A DNA stretch of 50,476 bases from Gammaproteobacteria bacterium. Lineage in GTDB: Bacteria > Pseudomonadota > Gammaproteobacteria > Burkholderiales > Gallionellaceae. Below are positions 13,490 to 26,445 of the stretch, in pieces. Made by a program: the position numbers and the translations under genes. Position 1 is the first letter of the stretch. Each line of letters opens with the position of its first letter. The stretch is from assembly GCA_018820925.1 (NCBI GenBank), contig JAHJNJ010000001.1, forward strand, positions 1-50,476, given 5' to 3'. The notes under the pieces were generated by a model, which was not told the DNA's origin, did no database searches, and worked only from the letters and a program-made list of their open reading frames with translations.

Positions 13490-14029
13490 TCAATCATAAC
13501 CCATCACCTCACCATCCAACGCACCAGCCCAATCACTTGCGTACACCCCATCCCGCACATAACGATGAAATGTCGAATACGGCCAATCACCCGCTTGTTG
13601 AACATGCCCGTGTTTAACCGGATTGAAATGAATGTAATCGACATGGCGGGCGAAATCTTCTTCGTCGCGTATTTGATGTTCCCAGAATCGGCGTTGCCAG
13701 ATGGTCGATTCACGATGCTTTATTCTTGATGCAGTCATCAAGCCTTCACGGCGATACTCATTGCCACATGCCAGCGAAACTGCCCGTTTGATTTTCATCC
13801 ATCGCGTGGAAAAATCGGCGTCACCTTCGGGCAAGGTCCATACGCAATGCAGATGGTCGGGCAGCAAGACCCAAGCGTCAATTTTGAAGGGACGCGATGC
13901 GTGCTCCGCTTCAATCGCAGCGCGCAGCGACTTACGAATAATCTCGTCACATAGGATAGGCTGCCGCTGGTAGGCGACCACCGTGAAGAAATAGGTAGAG
14001 CCGGTTCTTGCCCGGCGATAGCGTGACAT
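13490..14029 (-). CDS. REP-associated tyrosine transposase (RAYT, Y1 family)
   Basis: A 179-aa Y1 transposase related to IS200/TnpA. The HUH metal site is His59-Leu-His61 in LLPDHLHCVWTLP. The nucleophilic tyrosine is Tyr132 in HVDYIHFNPVKHG, preceded by the family signature WQRRFWEHQIRDEEDF. RAYTs nick single-stranded DNA at GTAG/GGAG-headed REP hairpins and are thought to spread them. Here the gene is flanked by an inverted pair of the same REP (13452-13485 and 14055-14086), the classic arrangement. The reading frame is complete with all catalytic residues, so the enzyme may be active. Confidence 0.93.
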   Translation of the reverse strand: MSRYRRARTGSTYFFTVVAYQRQPILCDEIIRKSLRAAIEAEHASRPFKIDAWVLLPDHLHCVWTLPEGDADFSTRWMKIKRAVSLACGNEYRREGLMTASRIKHRESTIWQRRFWEHQIRDEEDFARHVDYIHFNPVKHGHVQQAGDWPYSTFHRYVRDGVYASDWAGALDGEVMGYD

Positions 14030-14573: not shown

Positions 14574-15086
14574 TTATTTCTTTGCGCTGATGGCGGTGAG
14601 GATGCCTTGCAGGATAGCAACTGGCGTGGGCGGACAACCGCTCACCACCACATCCACCGGAATAACGTTGGCGACTTTGCCGCAGCTGGCATAGCTCTCG
14701 CCGAAGATGCCGCCGTCGCAGGCGCAATCGCCGATGGCGACCACCAGCTTGGGTTCGGGCGTGGCGTCGTAGGTGCGCTTGAGTGCGACCTCCATGTGGC
14801 GCGACACCGGGCCGGTGACCAGCAGCAAGTCGGCATGGCGCGGACTGGCGACGAATTTGATGCCCAAGCCCTCGATGTTGTAATAGGCGTTGTTGACGGC
14901 GTGTATCTCCAGCTCGCAACCGTTGCACGAACCGGCATCGACCTGACGGATGGCGAGCGCGCCGCCGAACACGTCGAGTATCTCCTGTTGCAGGCGTTGT
15001 TCGAGCAGGCGCATGGATTCGTCCGCCTGCGGCGGGGTTTCGGTCTTGATGCCCGTCTTGTATATTTGTTTGAGTATCTGGTACAT
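14574..15086 (-). CDS. hyfI: Ehr/hydrogenase-4-like small subunit (NuoB-type)
   Basis: A 170-aa NuoB/HyfI homologue. Four cysteines able to hold the proximal [4Fe-4S] cluster are present: Cys54 and Cys57 in GSCNGCELE, Cys121 in IGDCACDGG, and Cys151 in SGCPPTP. This subunit pairs with the large subunit HyfG and would pass electrons to or from a site at their interface. Its start shares a base with the hyfG stop (TGATG). It is the last gene of the six-gene operon. Because HyfG lacks nickel ligands, the complex cannot be a [NiFe] hydrogenase, yet the cluster site here is intact. Confidence 0.88.
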   Translation of the reverse strand: MYQILKQIYKTGIKTETPPQADESMRLLEQRLQQEILDVFGGALAIRQVDAGSCNGCELEIHAVNNAYYNIEGLGIKFVASPRHADLLLVTGPVSRHMEVALKRTYDATPEPKLVVAIGDCACDGGIFGESYASCGKVANVIPVDVVVSGCPPTPVAILQGILTAISAKK

Positions 15087-16630
15087 CAGAGATCCTGCCC
15101 CGAATAGCTGAGATTGAACGACTTATTGATCAGCGGGAAATCCGGCACGATGTCGTTGACGACGGCGTGTTCCAGCACCGGCCAGTTCTGCCAGGACGGA
15201 TCATGCGGATGCACGCGTGTGAGGTTGCCCTGCGCATCGGTGTGGATCGCCACCAATACTTCGCCGCGCCAGCCTTCCACCATGCCGATGCCGAAACCGT
15301 TCGGCGGCAGTTTCTCGATCAGCGCCGGCGCTGCGTCCTCATGCACCAGATTGGCCAGAATATCGCGCTGCAGGCGCAACGATTCGAACAGTTCGCCGAA
15401 ACGCACAATGGCACGCGCCGCCACATCGCCGTTGCGATAAGTCGCCATTTGCACATCCAGCTTGTCGTAGGGCGCGCAGGCAAACTGCACGCGCGCATCC
15501 CAGGCCTGGGCGCTGGCGCGTCCGGCCAGCCCGCACAGGCCGAGCTGCGCGGCCAGCTTCGGCTCGACCGTTCCGGTAATGATGAAACGGTCCTGCAACC
15601 CGGCGTGTTCATCGTAGATGCCGCGCAGGATGCGCACCTGCTTTTCCAGCATGTCACATTCCTGCTCGATGATATGCTTGCCGTCGACATTGAGGCTTGC
15701 CGTAACGCCGCCCGGAACGATCTTGTCCATCAGGTAGCGATGACCGAACAGTGTGGCGTTGTTGCGCAGTACCTGTTCCTTGAGTATCCAGAATTGGGCG
15801 AAGCCGAACGCCAGCGCCACGTCGTTGCCCAGATAGCCGAGATCGCCCAGATGGTTGGCGACACGCTCGCGCTCCAGCAGCAGCGCGCGCATCCACAACG
15901 CGCGGCTGGGCGGGGTGACTTTCGCAACACTCTCTGCCGCCATCGCATACGCCCAGGCATAGGCCACGGTACTGTCGCCGCTTACCCGTCCGGCCAGCTT
16001 CGCACCCTGCTGCACAGTCATGCTCTCGAAACGTTTTTCGATACCCTTGTGCACATAGCCCAGGTGTTCTTCCAGACGCAGCACGCGCTCGCCGATGATG
16101 GAGAAACGGAAGTGGCCCGGCTCGATGATGCCCGCATGCACCGGGCCGACCGGAACCTCATGCACGCCCTGCCCTTCCACCTGCACGAAGGGATAGTCTT
16201 CCGGTTCATGCGCGAGACTGGCCGCCGCATCGAAGTCCTTGCGCAAGGGGAAGCTGCCGCTGTGCCAGGCACCGTGGCGCAACCATTTGCGGTGGTCGTG
16301 GCCTTCCTGCGCATAGATGCCGAGCAGGTCGTACGCCGCGCGCTGCATGCGGTTGGCCGCCGGAAATATCCGGCTGAGGTCGGGATACACCGGCTGCTCT
16401 GCGGATAACAGTGCGTTCAAACATACCATTCCGGTTTCGTTGATCAACACAACATGCAGCATGAATCCGCGCGGTCTGGCATCGCTGCCCCACAGCGCGA
16501 CCAGCCGACCGCCACCGTCGCGCACCTGTTGGCAGATTTCATGCAGGTCGGCCGGCGCGATCTCGCCCGTCCACGCGGGAAGCGCGTCGGTCAGTCGGGT
16601 CAGTTTCAGATTGGGATGTTTGATCGGCAT
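15086..16630 (-). CDS. hyfG: Ehr large subunit, NuoC-NuoD fusion without NiFe ligands
   Basis: 514 aa from the ATG at 16630 (MPIKHPNLKL); the frame runs open further upstream but through a repeat. Residues 1 to about 150 are NuoC-like and about 160-514 NuoD/hydrogenase-large-subunit-like (VGPVHAGIIEPGHFRFSI, LGYVHKGIEKR). The first nickel motif, RxCGxC in hydrogenases, reads RVSGDS (215-220). The second, DPCxxC near the C-terminus, is replaced by DFPLINKSFNLSYSGQ. Both CxxC pairs are gone, so no [NiFe] centre can form. This is the mark of energy-converting-hydrogenase-related (Ehr) complexes. What it oxidises or reduces is unknown. Confidence 0.88.
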   Translation of the reverse strand: MPIKHPNLKLTRLTDALPAWTGEIAPADLHEICQQVRDGGGRLVALWGSDARPRGFMLHVVLINETGMVCLNALLSAEQPVYPDLSRIFPAANRMQRAAYDLLGIYAQEGHDHRKWLRHGAWHSGSFPLRKDFDAAASLAHEPEDYPFVQVEGQGVHEVPVGPVHAGIIEPGHFRFSIIGERVLRLEEHLGYVHKGIEKRFESMTVQQGAKLAGRVSGDSTVAYAWAYAMAAESVAKVTPPSRALWMRALLLERERVANHLGDLGYLGNDVALAFGFAQFWILKEQVLRNNATLFGHRYLMDKIVPGGVTASLNVDGKHIIEQECDMLEKQVRILRGIYDEHAGLQDRFIITGTVEPKLAAQLGLCGLAGRASAQAWDARVQFACAPYDKLDVQMATYRNGDVAARAIVRFGELFESLRLQRDILANLVHEDAAPALIEKLPPNGFGIGMVEGWRGEVLVAIHTDAQGNLTRVHPHDPSWQNWPVLEHAVVNDIVPDFPLINKSFNLSYSGQDL

Positions 16631-16645
16631 ATTAGTTATCTTAAC

Positions 16646-16788
16646 AGCAGTAACTAGCCACGGATAAACACGGATAAACACGGATGTGTGAAGCAACCAT
16701 TGTGCAATCTTCCATCGAACTAAACATACCGTATGCAAAAATCGTTTGTCGAGTATCCGAGTTCATCTGTGTTCATCCGTGGCTGTTT
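16646..16788. repeat. CACGGATA-type inverted repeat inside the hyf/ehr operon
   Basis: The 166 bases between hyfF and hyfG hold GCCACGGATAAACACGGATAAACACGGAT on one side and, inverted, CATCTGTGTTCATCCGTGGC near the other end. The arms could pair to a long imperfect hairpin. This is the only sizeable gap in an operon whose other genes touch or overlap, so it looks like a later insertion. Confidence 0.75.
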
Positions 16789-16796
16789 TTCAAGTG

Positions 16797-18254
16797 TTAT
16801 CCCAGTAACGCCGCCGCCTGACGATACCAGTCAGCCAGGTATGGCGGCATGTACAGACCCAGCATCAGCACCAGCAGCAGGTGGACGAACACCGGAATGA
16901 GCGCGGGCGAATGCGGCAAGCGTTTCGCGGTGGTTTCGCCGAATACGACAGGCTGGATCTTGCCGAAGATGGCGGCGAACGCAACACCCAGCGCGATCAG
17001 CAGGAACGGCGTGGTCCACGGATATTCGTGCATGGCGGTGGTGATGATGAGGAACTCGCTGGCGAACACGCCGAACGGCGGCATGCCCAGAATCGCAAAC
17101 GTGCCGATTGCCAACCCCCAGCCAACCGTGGGACTGACTTGCAGCATGCCGCGGATATTCTCCATCACTTGCGTGCCGGACTTTTGCACCGCATGGCCGA
17201 CCGCGAAGAAGATCGCCGATTTGGTCAGCGAGTGCACCGTCATGTGCAGCATGCCCGCGAACGTCGCCACCGGGCCGCCCATGCCGAGCGCGAAAGTAAT
17301 CAAGCCCATGTGCTCGATGGAGGAATACGCAAACATGCGTTTGATGTCTTTTTGCCGGAACAGCGAGAAGGAAGCCACCACCACCGACAGCAGGCCGAAG
17401 CCCATCATCAGATAGCCGGCAAAGTGCGTGCCCAGCGAACCGTCCACCAGCACCTTGCTGCGCACCACCGCGCACAGCGCGACATTCAGCAGCAGACCGG
17501 AGAGCACGGCAGACACCGGCGTCGGACCTTCCGCGTGCGCGTCCGGCAACCAGCTGTGCAAGGGCACCAGACCGACCTTGGTGCCGTAACCCACCAGCAG
17601 GAACACGAAAGCCAGCTTGAGCACGGTCGGTTCCAGTTCGCCTTTGACCTCATTCAGGTGCGTCCACAGCAACGCCGTACCGCCCTCGCCCAGCACGCGC
17701 TCGGCGGCAAAATACAGCAGGATGGTGCCGAACAGCGCCAGCGCGATACCCACGCCGCACAGGATGAAATATTTCCACGCCGCTTCCAGGCTGGCGGGGG
17801 TGCGGTACAACGACACCAGCAGCACCGTGGTCAGCGTGGCCGCCTCCATCGCGACCCACACGATACCCATATTGTTGGTGGTCAGCGCCACCAGCATGGC
17901 GAAGGTGAACATCTGGTACATGCTGTAGTACAGGTGCAGCATGCCGGTGGTGAGTTTGCCGTGGTGCTGCTCGATGCGCATGTACGGGCGCGAGAACAGC
18001 GAGGTGGTGAAAGCGACGAAGGCGGTCAGCGCGACCAGGAACACGTTGAACTGGTCGATGAAGAATTGTTCGTGGAACGCCACTTGCGGCCCGGAGTCGA
18101 TCACGCGCATGGTCAGTATCACCGAAGCGGCGAAAGTGAAAAAACTCATCAGCGAATTGAGCTCCGCCGCCCACTTGCGCGAACCGAATACAGCCAGCAA
18201 CGCACCACCCAACAGAGGCGCGAGCAACAGCGCGAGAAGTTGCAGGTCAATCAT
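16797..18254 (-). CDS. hyfF: Ehr antiporter-like membrane subunit (NuoN/HyfF type)
   Basis: 485 aa from the ATG at 18254, which overlaps the end of hyfE by 8 bases. About 14 membrane helices. It belongs to the Mrp-antiporter-like subunits that move protons: the helix-5 glutamate is in VWVAMEAATLTTVLLV and a conserved lysine in GYGTKVGLVPLHSWLPDAH. A second lysine position, Lys in HyfB (SGVMLKTAIYGILR), is Asn here (SGLLLNVALCAVVR). With HyfB it would give two proton channels. Confidence 0.9.
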   Translation of the reverse strand: MIDLQLLALLLAPLLGGALLAVFGSRKWAAELNSLMSFFTFAASVILTMRVIDSGPQVAFHEQFFIDQFNVFLVALTAFVAFTTSLFSRPYMRIEQHHGKLTTGMLHLYYSMYQMFTFAMLVALTTNNMGIVWVAMEAATLTTVLLVSLYRTPASLEAAWKYFILCGVGIALALFGTILLYFAAERVLGEGGTALLWTHLNEVKGELEPTVLKLAFVFLLVGYGTKVGLVPLHSWLPDAHAEGPTPVSAVLSGLLLNVALCAVVRSKVLVDGSLGTHFAGYLMMGFGLLSVVVASFSLFRQKDIKRMFAYSSIEHMGLITFALGMGGPVATFAGMLHMTVHSLTKSAIFFAVGHAVQKSGTQVMENIRGMLQVSPTVGWGLAIGTFAILGMPPFGVFASEFLIITTAMHEYPWTTPFLLIALGVAFAAIFGKIQPVVFGETTAKRLPHSPALIPVFVHLLLVLMLGLYMPPYLADWYRQAAALLG

Positions 18255-18909
18255 CCTTGAGCTTCTCCATGTGGGCGATGTCCAGGCTGTCGAAAGTCTC
18301 GCGGATCTGGAAGAAGAAAATACCGAAAATGAAGGTGGCCACCAGCACGTCCAGCGCGATGCCCAGCTCCACCACCAGCGGCATGCCCTGCGTGGCACTG
18401 GTGGCGGCGAAGAACAAACCGTTTTCCAGCGACAGGAAAGCGACCACCTGCGACACCGCCTTGCGCCGCGTGAGCATCATCAGCAGCGACAACAGCACGC
18501 TGGCCAGCGCAATGCCGATCAGGCCGCGCGTGAGGCCTTCGGACAATTGTGCGATCGGCGCGGCCAGGTTGAACGAGAAAATCACCAGCGAGATGCCGAC
18601 CAGCATGGTGGTGGGAATATTGATCAGCGTCTCCACATCCCAGCGCACATTCAGTTTGCGTATCAGGCGGTGCAGCAGCCAGGGCAGCAGCAGCACTTTC
18701 AGCAGCAGGGTGAGACCTGCCGAATAATACAAATGGTGCTGACTGGTCGAAAAGGCAACCACGAAAGTGCTGAGAGACAGCACTGCGCCCTGCAAGGCAA
18801 ACAGGTTGATCAACGACAGGATGCGCCGCTGCGTGAGCATGGCGAATGCAATCAGCAGCAGCAGGGCGGCCAGCAGGTTGATGAATTGGAGCAGGAAAGG
18901 GGTCTGCAT
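18247..18909 (-). CDS. hyfE: Ehr membrane subunit (NuoK/HyfE type)
   Basis: A 220-aa, very hydrophobic protein with about six membrane helices, matching HyfE in length (E. coli HyfE is close to 216). The N-terminal part corresponds to a NuoK-like unit (LLIAFAMLTQRRILSLINLFALQGAVL), and VVAFLSLENGLFF holds the buried glutamate typical of NuoK-type subunits. It lies one base after hyfC and overlaps hyfF by 8 bases, so all three are surely co-translated. Confidence 0.9.
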   Translation of the reverse strand: MQTPFLLQFINLLAALLLLIAFAMLTQRRILSLINLFALQGAVLSLSTFVVAFSTSQHHLYYSAGLTLLLKVLLLPWLLHRLIRKLNVRWDVETLINIPTTMLVGISLVIFSFNLAAPIAQLSEGLTRGLIGIALASVLLSLLMMLTRRKAVSQVVAFLSLENGLFFAATSATQGMPLVVELGIALDVLVATFIFGIFFFQIRETFDSLDIAHMEKLKDD

Positions 18910-18910
18910 C

Positions 18911-19870
18911 TCAGGCCCCCAGCAGGAAATGAATCAGCAGGCCCAGCACCGCCAGCAGGAACGCGGTGGCCAGGAATTCCGGCGCGCGGAAAATGCGCAG
19001 CTTGGCGGACACGATCTCGAACACGGCCAGCGCCGCTCCCGCCAGTACCAGCTTGAGCAGCAAGGCCACAATGGCCAGCGGCAGCCCGGCCCAGTTGCCC
19101 ACTTCGGCAATGCCGTGCGGCAGGAACAGGGCGATGCCGATGGTGATGTAAGCGAACAGTTTCAGGCTGCTGGCCCATTCGATCAACGCCAGATGGCGCG
19201 CCGAATATTCCAGGATCATCGCCTCGTGGATCATGGTCAGTTCGAGGTGGGTGCTGGGGTTGTCCACCGGTATGCGCGCATTCTCTGCAAGCAACACCAT
19301 CAAGAATGCCAACGCAGCGAAGGCCAGGCTCGGATACAACACGAACTGGTGATGCGCCAGGGTATCGACGATGACCGGCAACTGGGTGGAATGGCTGATC
19401 ATGGAGGCGGTGAAGAACACCATCAGCAGGGCCGGCTCGGCCAGGAACGACACCAGCATCTCGCGTCTGGCGCCCATCGATCCGAACGCGGTGCCGATGT
19501 CCATCGCCGCAAGCGAGATAAACACGCGCGCCACCGCAAACACACCGACCAGCGCGATCACGTCGGCAGCCATCGAGAACGGCAAGTCCACCGCGATGAT
19601 CGGGATGATGGCGGCCGCCAGCCACATGCAACCGAACACGATGTAAGGCGTGACGCGGAACAATGGCGACGCATTGTGCGCAATCACCGCATCCTTGCTG
19701 AACAGTTTGCGCAGCACGCGATACGGCTGCAGCACGCCCGCGCCGGAGCGGTTCTGCAGCCAGGCCTGGCACTGGTTGACCCAGCCGGTCAGCAGCGGGG
19801 CGAATACCACCACCAGCACCAGTTGTGCCAGTTGAAACAGGACGGCGAAGAGAAGTTGGTATTTTTCCAT
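18911..19870 (-). CDS. hyfC: Ehr membrane subunit (NuoH/HyfC type)
   Basis: 319 aa from the ATG at 19870 (MEKYQLLFAVLF...), which shares a base with the hyfB stop (TGATG). About eight helices. The NuoH signature appears as QPYRVLRKLFSKDAV, FVLYPSLAFAALAFLMVLLAENARIPVDNPSTHLELTM and IHEAMILEYSARHLALIEWAS, with acidic residues in the loops facing the peripheral arm. This subunit joins the redox module (HyfG/I) to the proton-moving modules. Confidence 0.92.
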   Translation of the reverse strand: MEKYQLLFAVLFQLAQLVLVVVFAPLLTGWVNQCQAWLQNRSGAGVLQPYRVLRKLFSKDAVIAHNASPLFRVTPYIVFGCMWLAAAIIPIIAVDLPFSMAADVIALVGVFAVARVFISLAAMDIGTAFGSMGARREMLVSFLAEPALLMVFFTASMISHSTQLPVIVDTLAHHQFVLYPSLAFAALAFLMVLLAENARIPVDNPSTHLELTMIHEAMILEYSARHLALIEWASSLKLFAYITIGIALFLPHGIAEVGNWAGLPLAIVALLLKLVLAGAALAVFEIVSAKLRIFRAPEFLATAFLLAVLGLLIHFLLGA

Positions 19871-21879
19871 CACACAAACACCAGCAACACGATCAGCGTG
19901 ACGAACGTGTAGGTCAGGTACAAATGAATGCGCCCGTGCTGCAGCAGCGAGGCCAGGGACGCGAGTTTCTCGGTAAGGTACTTGATCGGCAGGTACAGGA
20001 TGTACCACAGGCGGTCGTCGCTTTGCCCGTGATAACGGGGATGCGTATCGAACGGGCTCGGCACTTCCCGTTCGATCTTGAAGAACGGTTCGAAGATGCG
20101 CCGGATCGGTTGCCCGAAGCCTTCGGCGGTATCCTGCATGCGCGCATTCTGTGCCGGATAACCGCAATCCCACGGGGCGCTGCGCCGCACCCGGCCGTGG
20201 TACAGGTGCCGCACCAGTATCGAGGTGAGCAGCATCACCGCCAGCACCGCCAGCAGGAAATACAGCGGGCTATAGCTGGCGCGTTCGGTATCCACCGGCG
20301 TCAGGAATACCCAGTTGCCCGCGGCATTGCCCAGGCTGGAGCCGATCAGTGAAAGCGAAACCAGATCGAGCTGATGCACCACGAACACCGGCGCCAAACC
20401 CAGCACAACACAGGCAAGCGCCAGCCAGCCCATCCCGATGCGCTCCCAGGTGCCCGTGTCGTGCGCATGCTCCAGCACTTTCTCGCGCGGTTGGCCGAGG
20501 AAGATCACGCCGTAGAATTTCACCATCACATACGCCGCCAGCGCCGCCGCCAGCGCGATCACTGCGGCGGCCACCGGCACCAGCATGTTGATATAACTGT
20601 TGGGCAAACCCGGCGACAACAGGAACGCCTGCAGCAGCAGCCATTCCGACACGAAACCGTTGAGCGGCGGCAGGCCGGCAATCGCCAGCACGCCGACCAG
20701 CATCAGCATCGCCGCCCACGGCATGCGCCGGATCAGTCCGCCCAGACGCCCCATGTTGCGTTCGCCGGTTGCGTGCAGGATGGCGCCGGTACCGACGAAC
20801 AGCAGACTCTTGAACATGGCGTGGTTGAGGCTGTGATACAGGGTGGCGGTAAGCGCCAATGCGGCCAGCGCATGCTTGCCATAGACATGGAAAATGATGG
20901 TCAGGCCGATGCCTACCAGCAGCAGGCCGATGTTCTCGATCGATGAATAGGCCAGCAGGCGTTTCATGTCGCCCTGCACGGCGGCGAACATCACGCCAAA
21001 TACGGCGGTAAGCAAGCCCAGCCCCAGCGCCAGCACGCCCCACCACCAGAGTTGCGTGCCCAGCAAATCGAAGGTCACGCGCAGGATGCCGTAGATCGCG
21101 GTCTTGAGCATCACGCCGCTCATGAGCGCGGATACCGGCGACGGTGCGGCGGGGTGCGCCTCGGGCAACCACATATGCATCGGCAATACGCCGGCCTTGG
21201 CGCCGAAACCGAACAGGGCCAGCAGGAACGCCGCCGAAGACCAGAATTCGGTCAGTTGCGCGTGACGCATGGCATCGAAAGTGTAAGCGGCGATGCCGTT
21301 GCCGCCCTGCATCACACCAAAACAAAGCAGGATGGAAATGGCACCCACGTGCGCAATCAGCAGATAGAGAAAACCCGCCTTGCGAATATCGGGAATGTTG
21401 TGATCGGTGGTGACCAGGAAATAGGAAGACAGCGCCATGGTTTCCCACGCCACCATGAACATATAGGCATCGTCCGCCAGCAGTACCAGTGTCATACCCG
21501 CCAGGAACAGGTGGTATTCGAGACACAACAGGCCGAGCGTACCGCCCGCCATGGTTTTGAAATAACCGGCGCCGAACAGGGATATCCCCAGGGATGCACC
21601 GCCCAGCAGGATCAGGAAGAAACCGGACAGCGGATCAAGGCGCAGGTGGAAAGGCAAGTCGGGCAAACCGAGCGGCAACACCATGACACCCGGGTCTGCG
21701 CCGAGCGCCCACATACCCGACACCGCCAACAGCAGGGACGTCAAGGCACTGAGCGGGAATATGACGTTGTTGATCAGGCGCGGGGCGCGTTGCAGGACCA
21801 ATCCTGCCACCCCGAGCACGATCCACAACTGGACTAGCCAGCCAACCACTTCCAGCGGCGATACACTCACTGAGTCCAT
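19870..21879 (-). CDS. hyfB: Ehr antiporter-like membrane subunit (NuoL/HyfB type)
   Basis: 669 aa, first gene of the operon. The helix-5 glutamate is in MVAWETMALSSYFLV. The lysines of the proton path are in LFGFGAKAGVLPMHMWLPEAHP and SGVMLKTAIYGILR. The C-terminal part extends beyond the 14-helix core as in HyfB/NuoL. The start has only a weak ribosome site (AGGTATAAG). The operon reads hyfB-C-E-F-G-I, without HyfA, HyfD or the ferredoxin-like HyfH/NuoI. No hydrogenase maturation gene (hypA-F) or formate dehydrogenase is present in the window. Confidence 0.93.
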   Translation of the reverse strand: MDSVSVSPLEVVGWLVQLWIVLGVAGLVLQRAPRLINNVIFPLSALTSLLLAVSGMWALGADPGVMVLPLGLPDLPFHLRLDPLSGFFLILLGGASLGISLFGAGYFKTMAGGTLGLLCLEYHLFLAGMTLVLLADDAYMFMVAWETMALSSYFLVTTDHNIPDIRKAGFLYLLIAHVGAISILLCFGVMQGGNGIAAYTFDAMRHAQLTEFWSSAAFLLALFGFGAKAGVLPMHMWLPEAHPAAPSPVSALMSGVMLKTAIYGILRVTFDLLGTQLWWWGVLALGLGLLTAVFGVMFAAVQGDMKRLLAYSSIENIGLLLVGIGLTIIFHVYGKHALAALALTATLYHSLNHAMFKSLLFVGTGAILHATGERNMGRLGGLIRRMPWAAMLMLVGVLAIAGLPPLNGFVSEWLLLQAFLLSPGLPNSYINMLVPVAAAVIALAAALAAYVMVKFYGVIFLGQPREKVLEHAHDTGTWERIGMGWLALACVVLGLAPVFVVHQLDLVSLSLIGSSLGNAAGNWVFLTPVDTERASYSPLYFLLAVLAVMLLTSILVRHLYHGRVRRSAPWDCGYPAQNARMQDTAEGFGQPIRRIFEPFFKIEREVPSPFDTHPRYHGQSDDRLWYILYLPIKYLTEKLASLASLLQHGRIHLYLTYTFVTLIVLLVFV

Positions 21880-22014: not shown

Positions 22015-25000
22015 TCACCCCGTCTTGCGTTTTCTTAACCATTCAAGAAAGTCTGCGGCAGGCATCGGATAAGCGATGCCGTAGCCCTGGCCGAAGCCGC
22101 AACCCATATCCGCCAGCGTCTGGATGAGTTTCGGGTCTTCCATGCCCTCGGCCACGGTCTGGCGGTTGAACGTCTTGGCCAGCGCGATCACGCCCTGCAC
22201 GATGGCATGGTCACCTTCGTTGGTGGCCATGTGTTGCACAAAAGACTGGTCGATCTTGAGCGTGTCGGCGCCCAGTTTGCGCAAATACACCAGCGACGAG
22301 TAGCCGGTGCCGAAATCGTCCAGCGCAAAACTCACGCCTAGGTCGCGGCATGCCTTGATGATATCGAACGACTGCCCCATGTCTTCCAGCGCCGCAGTTT
22401 CCAGCACTTCGATCTGCAACCGGCCCTGTGCCAGCTTCGGATATTGCTCCAGCGTGCGTTTCAGTTCGGCCACGAAATCCGGCGACTGCAGATGCCGCGC
22501 GGAAATGTTGACGCTGATTTCCATCGCCACGCCGGCCTGTTCCCAGGCGTGCAGTTGCGCGAGCGCCTCGGCAATCACCCACTTGCCCAGCCTGATCTCC
22601 AGGTCCGAATTTTCGATGACGGGCAGGAAGTCGGCCGGAATCAGCAAACCGCCCTCGGGATGGTTCCAGCGAATCAATGCCTCGACGCCGACGATGGTGT
22701 TTGAAGACAATTCCAGTTTCGGCTGGTAATACAGCTCGAACTCCCCGTTCTCCAAACCCTGCAGGATGCGTCTTCTCGTTTCATGCAGGGAACGCACGCG
22801 CTGGTCATGGATGGCATCGTAGATGTGATAGCGGTTCTTGCCGGTCTGCTTGGCGATATACATCGCCTGATCGGCATGGCGCAACAAAGTGTCGCCATCC
22901 TCGTTGTCCGACGGATAGAAGGTCACCCCGATGCTGGCAGAGACGGCGACCTGCTGACCGGAGAGTCGCATGGGCGCGGCAACGGTCTGCATGATGCGGT
23001 CCAGCACCTGGAAGCATTCGGCCTCCTCCGCCAGATCGTTGAACAGCACCACGAATTCGTCACCGCCCAGACGTGCCAGGGTATCGCCCGCGCGCAGCAC
23101 TTCCTGCAAGCGGCGTGCAACATCCACCAGCAAGATATCTCCGGACTCATGGCCGTACTGGTCGTTCACTTCCTTGAACCCGTCGAGGTCGAGGTAGCAA
23201 ATGGCCAGTTGCTTGCTGCTGCGCTGCGCAAGCGCCACGGCCTGCTTCAGGCGGTCGGCCAGCAGGCGCCGGTTGGGAACCCCGGTGAGCGCATCGTAAT
23301 TGGCAACCATGCTCAACTCGGCCTCATGGTCCTTGAAATAGGTGATGTCGGAAAATACGCCGACATGGCGCTGGACCTTGCCCTGCTCGTCGCAGATGGC
23401 CGAGATCGACAGCAACTCCGCGTACACCTCGCCGTTCTTGCGCCGGTTCCATATCTCACCGCGCCAGACTTTCGCCTCCTGCAACGCCTGCCACATCCCG
23501 GCATAAAACGCCTTGTCCTGGCGGCCCGAACTCAGGAACTTCGGATTCCTGCCCAGCACCTCGTTGCGGCCGTATCCGGTGATGAAGGTGAATGCCGGAT
23601 TGACATCGATGATGATGTTGCCCGCATCGGTGATAACGATGGCCTCCTGGCTGTTGTCGAACACGCTGGCGGTGACGCGCAGTGCTTCCTCGCCTATGCG
23701 GCGCTCGGTGACGTCGTACTGGATGCCGTCCCACAAGAGATCGCCGTTCTCCAGCCGGGTGGGTTGCGATTCGACATGCAACCAGCGTATCTCGCCGTTC
23801 TTCTTCTGTATCCTGCCCTCCCAAAGAAAACGGTTCAGGGTCGTGCCGGCTTCTGCATTGAGGCGGACAAACCCGTCCCTGTCGTCGGGGTGGATGCGTG
23901 ACAGCGGCAGCAGCGGGTCTTCCCTGATTTCCGTTTCCGTCACGTCGAGCAACTCGCACCAGCGCGGACTCACATAGTCGAACACGGCGCTGCCGTCGGG
24001 ATGCATGCGGTATTTGTAGATGCCGACCGGTATCCGCTGCACCAGATCGCTGTATTCATCGATGCTGTGACGCAGCGCTTCTTCGGCGCGTTTCAGATCG
24101 CTGACATCGCGCCCGACGATGACCAGCCCCTTGCGGCTGCCGTCCTCGTTGAACAGTGGCACCTTGATGACATCGAAGGCCAGTCTGCCCACGGCGGGAA
24201 TCTGCATGACTTCTTCCACACGCGAGGTGGTTCCGATTTGCCACGCCTGCTTGTCCGTCTCGCCGCATTGCAGCAATGCCGCCTTGTACTGCGGACCGGC
24301 GACCTCCGCCAATTCCGCATCGGTCCTGCCACGGCTGGTCTGCGCATCGAGGCCGAACGCCAGGCGCGCGGCGGAATTGGATTCCAGCCAGCGCCCCTCG
24401 CCGTCCTTGAACTGGATCGCATCGGGGATCGCCTCGATCAGCGTGCGCAACAGCTCTTCGCTCTGCTGCAATTTGGCGGATTGCTTTTCGACCAGGCGTT
24501 TGAGCTCATCCTTGCCGCGCCGCATGTCGGTGACATCCACCTGCGCACCGATGATCGCCGGACGGCCCTGGTATTCGATCCTGCGCCCGTGCACGTCCAG
24601 GGTGATCTGGGTTCCGTCGCGCTTGAACAGGCTGAAGCAGAGCCTTGTCGTTTCTTCCCGGCCTTCGAGCAGGCTTTGTATTGCCGCTTCCACGCCCGCC
24701 TGTTCTTCCTGCCTGATGAAACGCAAAAATGTAAATTTGTCGACGATGTCGTCCGCCGAATCGAACCCCAGCATGCTGACCAGTCCCGGATTGGCGTAGC
24801 GGAAGAACCCGTCCTGAATGATGAAAATGCCCACCAGCGACTGCTCGACCAGCGCACGGAACTTGGTGGACTCCTCGACGACCAGCCCTTCCAGGCGGCG
24901 GCGGTAATCCTCCAGTTGCGACTGCGTCCGCTTGCGCTCGCTGATGTTGCGCACCAGCGACATGTTGTAGCCGCCCCCCTCATATTCGAAGTAGTTGGCG

Positions 25001-26445
25001 CTGATCTCGACCGGAAAGATGCTGCCATCCCGTGTTCTGTGCCGGGTCTCGAATGTCGCCGTCCCCTGCATCTCGATGTATTCCCGGCGCCTGACCCATT
25101 TTTCCTGCGACCAGTTCGGCACGATGTCTTTTGCCGTCATGCCGCCAAGGAATTCTTCGCGGCTGTAACCCAACTCCCGGCAAACCTCATCGTTCACATA
25201 CAGGAAGCGTCCTTCGCCATCCAGCACATACATCGCTTCCCCGATGCGATCCAGTGCAAAGTTCAATTGGCTCAACTGCCATTCGCGATTCTTGCGTTCG
25301 GTGATATCGCGGGCCACGCCGAGCACCCCGATCAGACGCCCCTGGCTGTCATGCATGGGCGTCTTGATGGTTTCGAACAGCCCCCGGTATCCGTCCGCAA
25401 AGTCCAGCCATTCTTCGTAGACATGAGGCTTGTCCGACTCGATCACCTTGTGGTCGCTTTCGCGGAAGAAATCCGCGAGTTTCTTGCTTACGAAATCGGA
25501 ATCCGTCTTGCCCACGATCTCCGACTTCTGTTTTCCCAGCAGCATTTCGAGACGGTGGTTGCACGCCAGGTACACGCCGTCCTTGTCTTTCAGCCAGACC
25601 AGGTCGGGAATGGTGTCGATGAAGGTGCGCAGGAATATCTCGTCGATCTCGTATTTTTCGTCCAGCAATCCCAAGGCCATGGTCTGGGTCAGGTCGTGCT
25701 CGCTCACCAGTCCGGCCATGCGCCCGCCCGCATCGACCACGGCCAGGTGACGCACTTTCTTCTTGAGCATTTTTTTGGCGGCTTCGTTGATGGTGGCGTC
25801 GCCGGATATCGTCAGCACGGGCGAAGTCATCAATTCGAACAGCGGGACGCTGACCCGTTCGGGTTCGCGCGAATAAAAACGCACCACATCCCGCTCGGTG
25901 ACGATGCCGACCGGCTTCTCGTTCTCGACCACAATCACGCAGGTTTCGCGTTGCGCCTGCATCAGGTTGAGCGCCTGCATCAGGCTGCTGTGTCCGGGCA
26001 GGCTGGTGACGGCATGGCGCGCAACGGATGCAACCTGGCGGCGCCCGGCCAGCGCGGTGAGATGCAAATGCAGGCGAAAATCCGTTTCGCTGACCACGCC
26101 GCTGGCTGCGCCGGCGCCGTCCACCAGCACCAGATGGCGTATCCCTTCGCGCATGCAGATCTGGTAGGCATCCAGGCAGTCGGTCGTGCCCGGCAGGGTA
26201 ATAACGGGGGCCGACATGCAGGCATGCAAAACGGTTTGCGGGGATGAACCGGAGCGCATCGCATGCAGAATGTTGCGTTCGGTGACGATGCCGATCGGGC
26301 GGCGGGCTTCGTCGGTGATCACAATCGAGGAGAAATGGCGCTGCGCCATGATCTGTGCCGCTTCGCTGAGCGTGGCATCCGCGGAAAGGCAAGTGACATC
26401 GCGCGTGGCAATGTCGATCAATTGATATTGTTTGTCATTCATCAT
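22015..26445 (-). CDS. CBS-PAS-GGDEF-EAL c-di-GMP signalling protein
   Basis: A 1476-aa cytoplasmic protein with no membrane helix. Four CBS repeats (about 10-60, 70-125, 137-192, 200-255) form two Bateman modules that may bind adenine nucleotides. About six PAS domains follow (starting near 280, 395, 530, 665, 790 and 920), each opening with the usual LxxxxxxIxDxVxxxDxxGxxLxxN pattern. The GGDEF motif is intact at 1127-1131 (ARLGGDEFVVLF) and EAL at 1255-1257 (GVEALIRW), so both synthesis and breakdown of c-di-GMP are possible. It ends 136 bases upstream of the hyfB start on the same strand. The start MMND has no strong ribosome site. Confidence 0.92.
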   Translation of the reverse strand: MMNDKQYQLIDIATRDVTCLSADATLSEAAQIMAQRHFSSIVITDEARRPIGIVTERNILHAMRSGSSPQTVLHACMSAPVITLPGTTDCLDAYQICMREGIRHLVLVDGAGAASGVVSETDFRLHLHLTALAGRRQVASVARHAVTSLPGHSSLMQALNLMQAQRETCVIVVENEKPVGIVTERDVVRFYSREPERVSVPLFELMTSPVLTISGDATINEAAKKMLKKKVRHLAVVDAGGRMAGLVSEHDLTQTMALGLLDEKYEIDEIFLRTFIDTIPDLVWLKDKDGVYLACNHRLEMLLGKQKSEIVGKTDSDFVSKKLADFFRESDHKVIESDKPHVYEEWLDFADGYRGLFETIKTPMHDSQGRLIGVLGVARDITERKNREWQLSQLNFALDRIGEAMYVLDGEGRFLYVNDEVCRELGYSREEFLGGMTAKDIVPNWSQEKWVRRREYIEMQGTATFETRHRTRDGSIFPVEISANYFEYEGGGYNMSLVRNISERKRTQSQLEDYRRRLEGLVVEESTKFRALVEQSLVGIFIIQDGFFRYANPGLVSMLGFDSADDIVDKFTFLRFIRQEEQAGVEAAIQSLLEGREETTRLCFSLFKRDGTQITLDVHGRRIEYQGRPAIIGAQVDVTDMRRGKDELKRLVEKQSAKLQQSEELLRTLIEAIPDAIQFKDGEGRWLESNSAARLAFGLDAQTSRGRTDAELAEVAGPQYKAALLQCGETDKQAWQIGTTSRVEEVMQIPAVGRLAFDVIKVPLFNEDGSRKGLVIVGRDVSDLKRAEEALRHSIDEYSDLVQRIPVGIYKYRMHPDGSAVFDYVSPRWCELLDVTETEIREDPLLPLSRIHPDDRDGFVRLNAEAGTTLNRFLWEGRIQKKNGEIRWLHVESQPTRLENGDLLWDGIQYDVTERRIGEEALRVTASVFDNSQEAIVITDAGNIIIDVNPAFTFITGYGRNEVLGRNPKFLSSGRQDKAFYAGMWQALQEAKVWRGEIWNRRKNGEVYAELLSISAICDEQGKVQRHVGVFSDITYFKDHEAELSMVANYDALTGVPNRRLLADRLKQAVALAQRSSKQLAICYLDLDGFKEVNDQYGHESGDILLVDVARRLQEVLRAGDTLARLGGDEFVVLFNDLAEEAECFQVLDRIMQTVAAPMRLSGQQVAVSASIGVTFYPSDNEDGDTLLRHADQAMYIAKQTGKNRYHIYDAIHDQRVRSLHETRRRILQGLENGEFELYYQPKLELSSNTIVGVEALIRWNHPEGGLLIPADFLPVIENSDLEIRLGKWVIAEALAQLHAWEQAGVAMEISVNISARHLQSPDFVAELKRTLEQYPKLAQGRLQIEVLETAALEDMGQSFDIIKACRDLGVSFALDDFGTGYSSLVYLRKLGADTLKIDQSFVQHMATNEGDHAIVQGVIALAKTFNRQTVAEGMEDPKLIQTLADMGCGFGQGYGIAYPMPAADFLEWLRKRKTG

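Follow-up and report, generated by a model that had tools for sequence, protein, structure and literature searches.

The stretch analysed here (the window) is a 50,476-nucleotide contig of a Gallionellaceae bacterium (GenBank assembly GCA_018820925.1, contig JAHJNJ010000001.1; contig C24 of the 3.44 Mb genome G000 in our numbering), and it carries an operon for an energy-converting hydrogenase-related (Ehr) complex. A reading of its open reading frames (ORFs) places six closely spaced genes on the minus strand, running from 21879 down to 14574 in the order hyfB-C-E-F-G-I. The first gene, hyfB (19870..21879), encodes a NuoL/MrpA-like antiporter subunit of 669 aa that scores 926.5 bits against the NCBIfam model for hydrogenase 4 subunit B (cut-off 667), and is followed by hyfC (18911..19870), which encodes a NuoH-like subunit of 319 aa counted from the ATG at 19870 (Pfam NADHdh, 1.3e-33). 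The product of hyfE (18247..18909) is a 220-aa membrane subunit that matches no Pfam family and reaches 84.4 bits with the NCBIfam hydrogenase 4 membrane subunit model, below its cut-off of 136, while hyfF (16797..18254) specifies a NuoM/N-like antiporter subunit of 485 aa (NCBIfam hydrogenase 4 subunit F, 877 bits, cut-off 543). The HycE-like large subunit, a fusion of NuoC and NuoD (30 kDa and 49 kDa) with 514 aa from the ATG at 16630, is encoded by hyfG (15086..16630), and the last gene, hyfI (14574..15086), encodes a NuoB/HycG-like [4Fe-4S] subunit of 170 aa (Pfam Oxidored_q6, 2.5e-31; best PDB match MbhJ, 6cfw, 1.5e-36). The longest frames of HyfG, HyfF and HyfC begin too early, and the starts at 16630, 18254 and 19870 were chosen from relatives. 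A preliminary description of this DNA had placed six ORFs at these coordinates and read them as an Ehr-type set without HyfH/NuoI or HyfD; the Pfam and NCBIfam assignments fit such a set, and neither HyfH/NuoI nor HyfD is found in the operon, which consists of the six genes only.

Both cysteine pairs that bind nickel in [NiFe] hydrogenases are lost from HyfG, as had been claimed. The first former nickel motif reads RVSGDS (residues 215-220, 15971..15988, minus strand) and contains a new Asp219; the second, DFPLINKSFNLSYSGQDL (residues 497-514, 15089..15142, minus strand), contains new Asn502, Lys503 and Asn506, forms the C-terminus and runs directly into the stop codon. Neither a frameshift nor a hidden CxxC, either of which could have undone this assignment, is present: the two motifs lie in one open frame with no CxxC at the site. 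In the alignment of HyfG with HycE from Escherichia coli, R-V-C-G-I-C is replaced by R-V-S-G-D-S and S-L-D-P-C-Y-S-C by S-F-N-L-S-Y-S-G; HyfG ends three residues past this second motif, whereas HycE continues. HycE (7z0s) is the best match for HyfG both by sequence and by structural model (pLDDT 82, pTM 0.87), where the structural comparison ranks Foldseek candidates only.

The site was followed across 170 loci, a set that includes the window, a relative only 33% identical (L070) and some near-copies (L080 and L051 are apparently one genome). All six genes are present in 140 of these loci, in the order B-C-E-F-G-I in 139 of the 140; 25 of the remaining 30 stop no more than 400 bp short of a locus end, and the five partial loci with no such end nearby are L118, L137, L140, L166 and L183. 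The former ligand positions vary. Position 217 is Ser in 151 loci, Ala in nine, Cys in eight and Val in two, and position 220 is Ser in 130, Thr in 34, Ala in three and Asn, Asp or Cys in one each, so that residual cysteines at the first motif amount to 8/170 and 1/170, respectively. Where the HyfG C-terminus is readable (167 loci), position 508 is Ser in 147, Ala in 14 and Asn in six, position 511 is Gly in 164 and Ala in three, and the second Cys pair occurs in none.

The residues around these positions are far more constant. Arg215 is found in 170/170 loci and Asp219 in 169/170, and among the readable C-termini Asn502 and Lys503 are each found in 166/167 and Asn506 in 165/167; the residues of HycE at the places of Asp219, Asn502, Lys503 and Asn506 are Ile, Ile, Gly and Asp. 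His165, Glu170, His173, Arg215 and Tyr509 are near-invariant and common to HycE. The distant relative L070 fits the single exceptions, with Ile at Asp219, Ala at Lys503 and a further exception at 502; it belongs to a second Ehr type (L070:10761-12506, genome G020) that carries ERVSGIDS and NEASFGLSVAGVDR. Nei-Gojobori dN/dS values for hyfG against six orthologues range from 0.09 to 0.13 and, with the near-invariant new residues, are at the level of sequence the mark of selection on a working site. To judge from the alignments, the nickel site is replaced by a new conserved polar residue set rather than decayed, with Asp219, Asn502, Lys503 and Asn506 beside His165, Glu170, Arg215 and Tyr509.

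HyfI was said to keep the four cysteines for its cluster, and it does so in the window and in every locus that could be scored. The ligands, assigned by homology, are Cys54 and Cys57 of a CNGC motif (14916..14927, minus strand), Cys121 (14724-14726) and Cys151 (14634-14636), and they are invariant in 162/162 loci (161/161 for Cys151). A survey of charged and His residues in the membrane subunits, with a conservation threshold of 95%, returned HyfB Glu146, Lys228, His353 and Lys357 (138/138 loci), HyfC Asp104, Glu146, Glu197, Glu211 and Glu217 (144/144), and HyfF Lys226, His341 and Lys345 (156/156) with Glu137 (155/156). The proton-path Glu and Lys residues described earlier for these subunits are thus retained at this threshold as Glu146/Lys228/Lys357 in HyfB and Glu137/Lys226/Lys345 in HyfF. 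Since the cluster ligands are invariant and the key pump residues are kept, the redox and pumping halves of the complex are both maintained.

The operon almost certainly encodes all six subunits of an Ehr complex from the formate-hydrogenlyase/hydrogenase-4 lineage that is under purifying selection and has no [NiFe] ligands, an assignment supported by its group-4/complex I homology and by the absence of both nickel Cys pairs. PMC10284858, PMC6349859, PMC10432482, PMC6728331 and PMC13194489 describe Ehr complexes as group-4-like, with the same group-4 hydrogenase/complex I subunits, without CxxC nickel ligands and without an established function, which bears out the earlier statement that the class is known and its reaction is not established. 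In these papers, Marreiros 2013 is cited as the reference for Ehr complexes (PMC6728331), a coupling of formate dehydrogenase to Ehr is proposed (PMC6349859) and the Geobacter Ehr complex is called non-functional (PMC13194489). PMC6131200 gives HyfB, C, E, F, G and I of Nitrospira moscoviensis as formate hydrogenlyase subunits, a likeness to our six genes by name only, and also gives formate dehydrogenase subunits. No formate dehydrogenase was noticed beside the operon when neighbours were clustered and read by eye, no family search for this enzyme having been made. A term search of the Sideroxydans papers PMC7784907 and PMC8788666, and of PMC6458275, returned nothing on hyf genes.

Comparison with the better-known relatives shows which parts are shared. 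Group-4 [NiFe] hydrogenases carry RxCGxC and DPCxxC ligands, which the window HyfG does not. The antiporter and NuoH-like set of E. coli formate hydrogenlyase is similar to that of the window operon, but the complex studied here has no nickel ligands and no ferredoxin subunits in its operon, and no counterpart of the HycB/HycF-type ferredoxin subunits was found by the motif scan of the 140 complete loci described below. Respiratory complex I has in common with it a NuoB, C/D, H and L/M-like core with its charged residues, whereas the NuoE/F/G/I input module is absent from the window operon; a separate NuoD is encoded on contig C8 of the same genome. Among the HyfG and HyfI matches are the 49 kDa-type and NuoB-type subunits of MBS/Mbx from P. 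furiosus (6u8y). MBS is a group-4 relative without hydrogenase activity; neither its ferredoxin-like subunit nor its small Mrp subunits are represented among the six window genes. The DAB/DAC inorganic-carbon complex requires a DabA partner, and the genome of the window encodes no DabA.

Other complexes of this general type occur in the same genomes. A second complex of the complex-I/group-4 type, likewise lacking a nickel site, is encoded on contig C12 of the window's genome (L036:7367-18147). It comprises antiporter and small Mrp-like ORFs (both recognised by eye) and NuoH/B/C/D-like subunits, of which the NuoD-like one reads RICVPEPDF and has no C-terminal CxxC. Unlike the window operon, it includes a linked electron input gene, for a 664-aa FAD oxidoreductase with Fer4 domains. 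Two further loci, L071 (G075:C30) and L072 (G095:C88), hold another group-4 complex with a DPCISC end, accompanied in L071 by ERICSLC, so true group-4 hydrogenases are likely to coexist with Ehr in Gallionellaceae.

Orthologues of HyfG were found in 47 of 100 Gallionellaceae genomes, including that of the window, in a count that mixes genomes of different completeness, as do the HypD, DabA and nifH counts for this family. Only matches at E ≤1e-190 were scored as Ehr-positive, and weaker matches (NuoD, other group-4 subunits and the 33% relative in G020) were excluded. Gallionellaceae supply the closest named relatives of HyfG among the matches listed. At least 580 relatives were returned when named genomes were scanned with a profile, and the best 80, which were retained, come largely from Betaproteobacteria, together with Methylobacter and other Methylococcales, Nitrospirae, Desulfobacterales and Mariprofundus. 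The carriers include a laboratory diazotroph, Paraburkholderia tuberum STM678 (L127). At class level, HyfG (E 1e-80) is present in 47 of 370 genomes drawn evenly over the group.

The preliminary description also reported no maturation genes, which is true of the window and its operon only, since HypD is encoded elsewhere in the genome (contig C37); HypD occurs in 77 of the 100 Gallionellaceae genomes. The class-level search for HypD covered every one of the 47 Ehr genomes and, of the 323 without Ehr, a sample of 71 (62 drawn as every fifth handle number, and nine more). HypD is present in 22/47 and 28/71, respectively (odds ratio (OR) 1.35, p 0.45), and shows no association with Ehr. The 25 of 47 Ehr genomes without HypD depart from the Hyp dependence of group-4 [NiFe] hydrogenases, and these carriers are better evidence against nickel than the maturation genes missing from the window.

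No recurrent linked electron partner was identified among the direct neighbours of the operon, which were clustered and read by eye and were not all searched against family libraries. A search of the operon strand out to 3 kb, as far as each of the 140 complete loci reaches, likewise gave no credible ORF of the ferredoxin type; a scan for the motif C-x2-C-x2-C-x3-C returned three ORFs, all of them Cys- and Arg-rich frames that were judged spurious by eye. In L047 (2-6211) and L053 (1-5958), genes for a molybdopterin oxidoreductase, a Fer4 subunit and a DmsC/NrfD-type anchor, which we take to be SoeABC-like, lead in the same direction and with small gaps into SulP and hyfB, and in L077 (8725-15332) the same genes and SulP adjoin the hyf operon on the opposite strand. 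This oxidoreductase operon does not recur elsewhere among the direct hyf neighbours and, because it is confined to three Gallionellaceae loci of 170, it was not taken as a general electron partner. The earlier remark that the complex has no obvious electron partner holds in that no recurrent linked one was found, and needs qualifying for these three loci.

The largest gene cluster directly upstream of hyfB consists of SulP permeases (10 loci), and PF00916 was detected in all seven of the SulP neighbour proteins scanned. Of the 136 loci with room for scoring, 17 have a SulP gene either at most 3 kb upstream in the same orientation or just downstream; 135 of the 136 have a HyfG long enough and 128 remain in the tree after near-copies were dropped. 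On this 128-row HyfG tree the presence of SulP requires at least 11 changes (shuffled mean 16.2), 10 of them forced by starred branches. The flanks total 1.66 Mb (on average less than 10 kb per locus) and contain 23 SulP ORFs, none of which is more than 2.8 kb from the operon and 15 of which are no farther away than 450 bp; the window's own locus has none. Two subfamilies can be distinguished, one mostly from Betaproteobacteria and one from Methylococcales, and both occur in L055. Of the SulPs scanned, the four of the c6 type exceed the cut-off of the general sulP model and the Methylococcales type exceeds that of no model; every one falls well short of the BicA threshold, on which ground a 'BicA-like' label for one subfamily was withdrawn. 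Between its SulP and hyfB genes, L092 encodes a CcmM-like hexapeptide protein of the gamma-carbonic-anhydrase type (129 bits, cut-off 550), and L086 has a homologue of it upstream. In the partial locus L178 (G266:C40) the expected place of hyfB, C and E, immediately upstream of hyfF, is taken by a SulP gene in the same orientation, and a Sulfuritalea genome (L108:430-4603) has both SulP and a CitMHS/TrkA-C anion permease upstream of hyfB.

In the window itself, the gene directly upstream of hyfB (22015-26445) encodes a 1476-aa CBS-PAS-GGDEF-EAL protein, relatives of which lie upstream of hyfB in L038, L040 and L088. At the other end of the operon, seven REP-like palindromes (GTAGGGTGGGCACG..CGTGCCCAC) between 11709 and 14574 flank a REP-associated tyrosine transposase (13490-14029), and one copy ends at the hyfI stop, 14574.

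Across the 370 class genomes, Ehr is associated neither with RuBisCO (26/47 Ehr genomes versus 164/323 others, OR 1.2) nor with DabA (14/47 versus 75/323, OR 1.4), and inorganic-carbon uptake was rejected as a general role because Ehr follows neither gene at this level. Within Gallionellaceae, DabA and Ehr avoid each other (2/47 versus 17/53, p 3e-4), a result that was not counted because 14 of the 19 DabA genomes belong to one genus (g8). A different picture was obtained for nitrogen fixation: nifH occurs in 16/47 Ehr carriers and 20/323 other class genomes (OR 7.8, p 4e-7, not tree-corrected). The OR is 9.6 at the level of family groups, on the assumption that 174 groups were sampled (the highest code seen), and 10.5 (p 1e-4) in a 118-genome subset after allowing for HypD and for genome size, the sizes being rounded table values. 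The genome of the window encodes nifH on contig C15. No link of SulP or nifH to Ehr was found in the open-licence literature searched, and the two associations offer new leads on the role of this known class.

We tentatively propose, at somewhat less than even chances, that this Ehr complex is a reversible ion-translocating electron-transfer complex connecting a low-potential carrier to the rebuilt pocket. As the operon has no HyfH/NuoI-type subunit, a soluble carrier (ferredoxin or flavodoxin, encoded elsewhere) would dock directly on the single [4Fe-4S] cluster of HyfI. An electron would then pass to or from an acceptor in the HyfG/HyfI pocket, probably a quinone or another small polar molecule, and this redox event would drive the HyfC-E-B-F proton path by analogy with complex I. 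In diazotrophs the complex may run backwards, spending the proton motive force to obtain low-potential electrons. That it could serve nitrogenase as a third kind of membrane engine, in addition to Rnf and Fix, with the proton motive force raising electrons to ferredoxin or flavodoxin by way of the [4Fe-4S] cluster and the Asp/Lys pocket, is a considerably more doubtful extension.

Several results weigh against this proposal. There is no recurrent linked electron donor or acceptor among the neighbours described above. In the alignment with Nqo4, the places of His38 and Tyr87 of the 49 kDa subunit, the quinone ligands of complex I, are occupied by Ile169 and Gly218 in HyfG. Within the family HypD goes with Ehr, being absent from 5/47 Ehr genomes versus 18/53 others (p 0.008), and the adjacency of SulP is left unexplained. 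As for nitrogen fixation, nifH was not detected in 31 of the 47 class-level Ehr carriers, so nitrogenase cannot be the sole client, and the association within Gallionellaceae is weak and largely follows genus (24/47 versus 14/53, p 0.014). Ehr and nifH may both merely mark low-oxygen life, for which the HypD control is only partial.

The same gene set could alternatively encode a complex-I-like oxidoreductase that passes electrons from ferredoxin, or another carrier, to quinone in the forward direction only. It would conserve energy, have a quinone site newly formed in the former nickel pocket and bear no relation to nitrogen fixation. We regard this as a serious though rather unlikely alternative; the equivalents of His38 and Tyr87 are not conserved, and an association with nifH would not be predicted.

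The SulP neighbourhood suggests another function, in which HyfB/C/E/F would move H+ or Na+ to energise anion transport (bicarbonate, sulfate or sulfite) by SulP, and HyfG-HyfI would act as a redox or proton gate, comparable to DAB and the cyanobacterial NDH-1 CO2-uptake complexes. The size of the upstream SulP cluster, the 17 of 136 loci with one more in L178, the closeness of every flanking SulP ORF to the operon, the repeated changes on the HyfG tree, the use of the same place by two subfamilies and the carbonic-anhydrase-type genes of L092 and L086 all point this way. However, 119 of the 136 loci, the window included, have no such SulP, Ehr is unlinked to RuBisCO and DabA at class level, and the family-level exclusion of DabA is confounded by one genus. 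The substrates of these SulPs are not readable from model scores, and the molybdopterin oxidoreductase operon that SulP adjoins in L047, L053 and L077 would be consistent with sulfate or sulfite. Such a module would moreover have no use for the conserved cluster ligands, and we consider it unlikely.

If HyfG and HyfI were structural only, the complex could be an Mrp-like cation/proton antiporter that is redox-silent. This reading would account for the retained charged residues of the antiporter subunits and for the want of a recurrent linked electron partner, but would leave the invariant cluster cysteines and the near-invariant rebuilt site as needless parts of a scaffold, and is improbable. 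That the complex is a hydrogenase in the course of degeneration, or one that uses other ligands, is highly improbable. In its favour, all four nickel ligands are lost and the window's genome has hypD, and PMC13194489 calls the Geobacter complex non-functional; it is opposed by dN/dS near 0.1, by the six genes in 140/170 loci (25 of the other 30 lying near a locus end), by the near-invariant new site and by the 25/47 Ehr genomes without HypD. Two related candidates were likewise rejected, a hydrogenase in disguise on the missing ligands, the HypD-free carriers and selection, and a decaying complex on the completeness of the gene set, the conserved charged residues and dN/dS.

Ehr complexes occur widely, occupy a position between complex I and the hydrogenases, and have no known reaction. 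The present analysis offers three testable handles on them: the new site (D219, K503), the class-level link to nitrogen fixation that survives simple controls, and the anion permease that recurs beside the operon. An assay for this enigmatic class could come from any of them.

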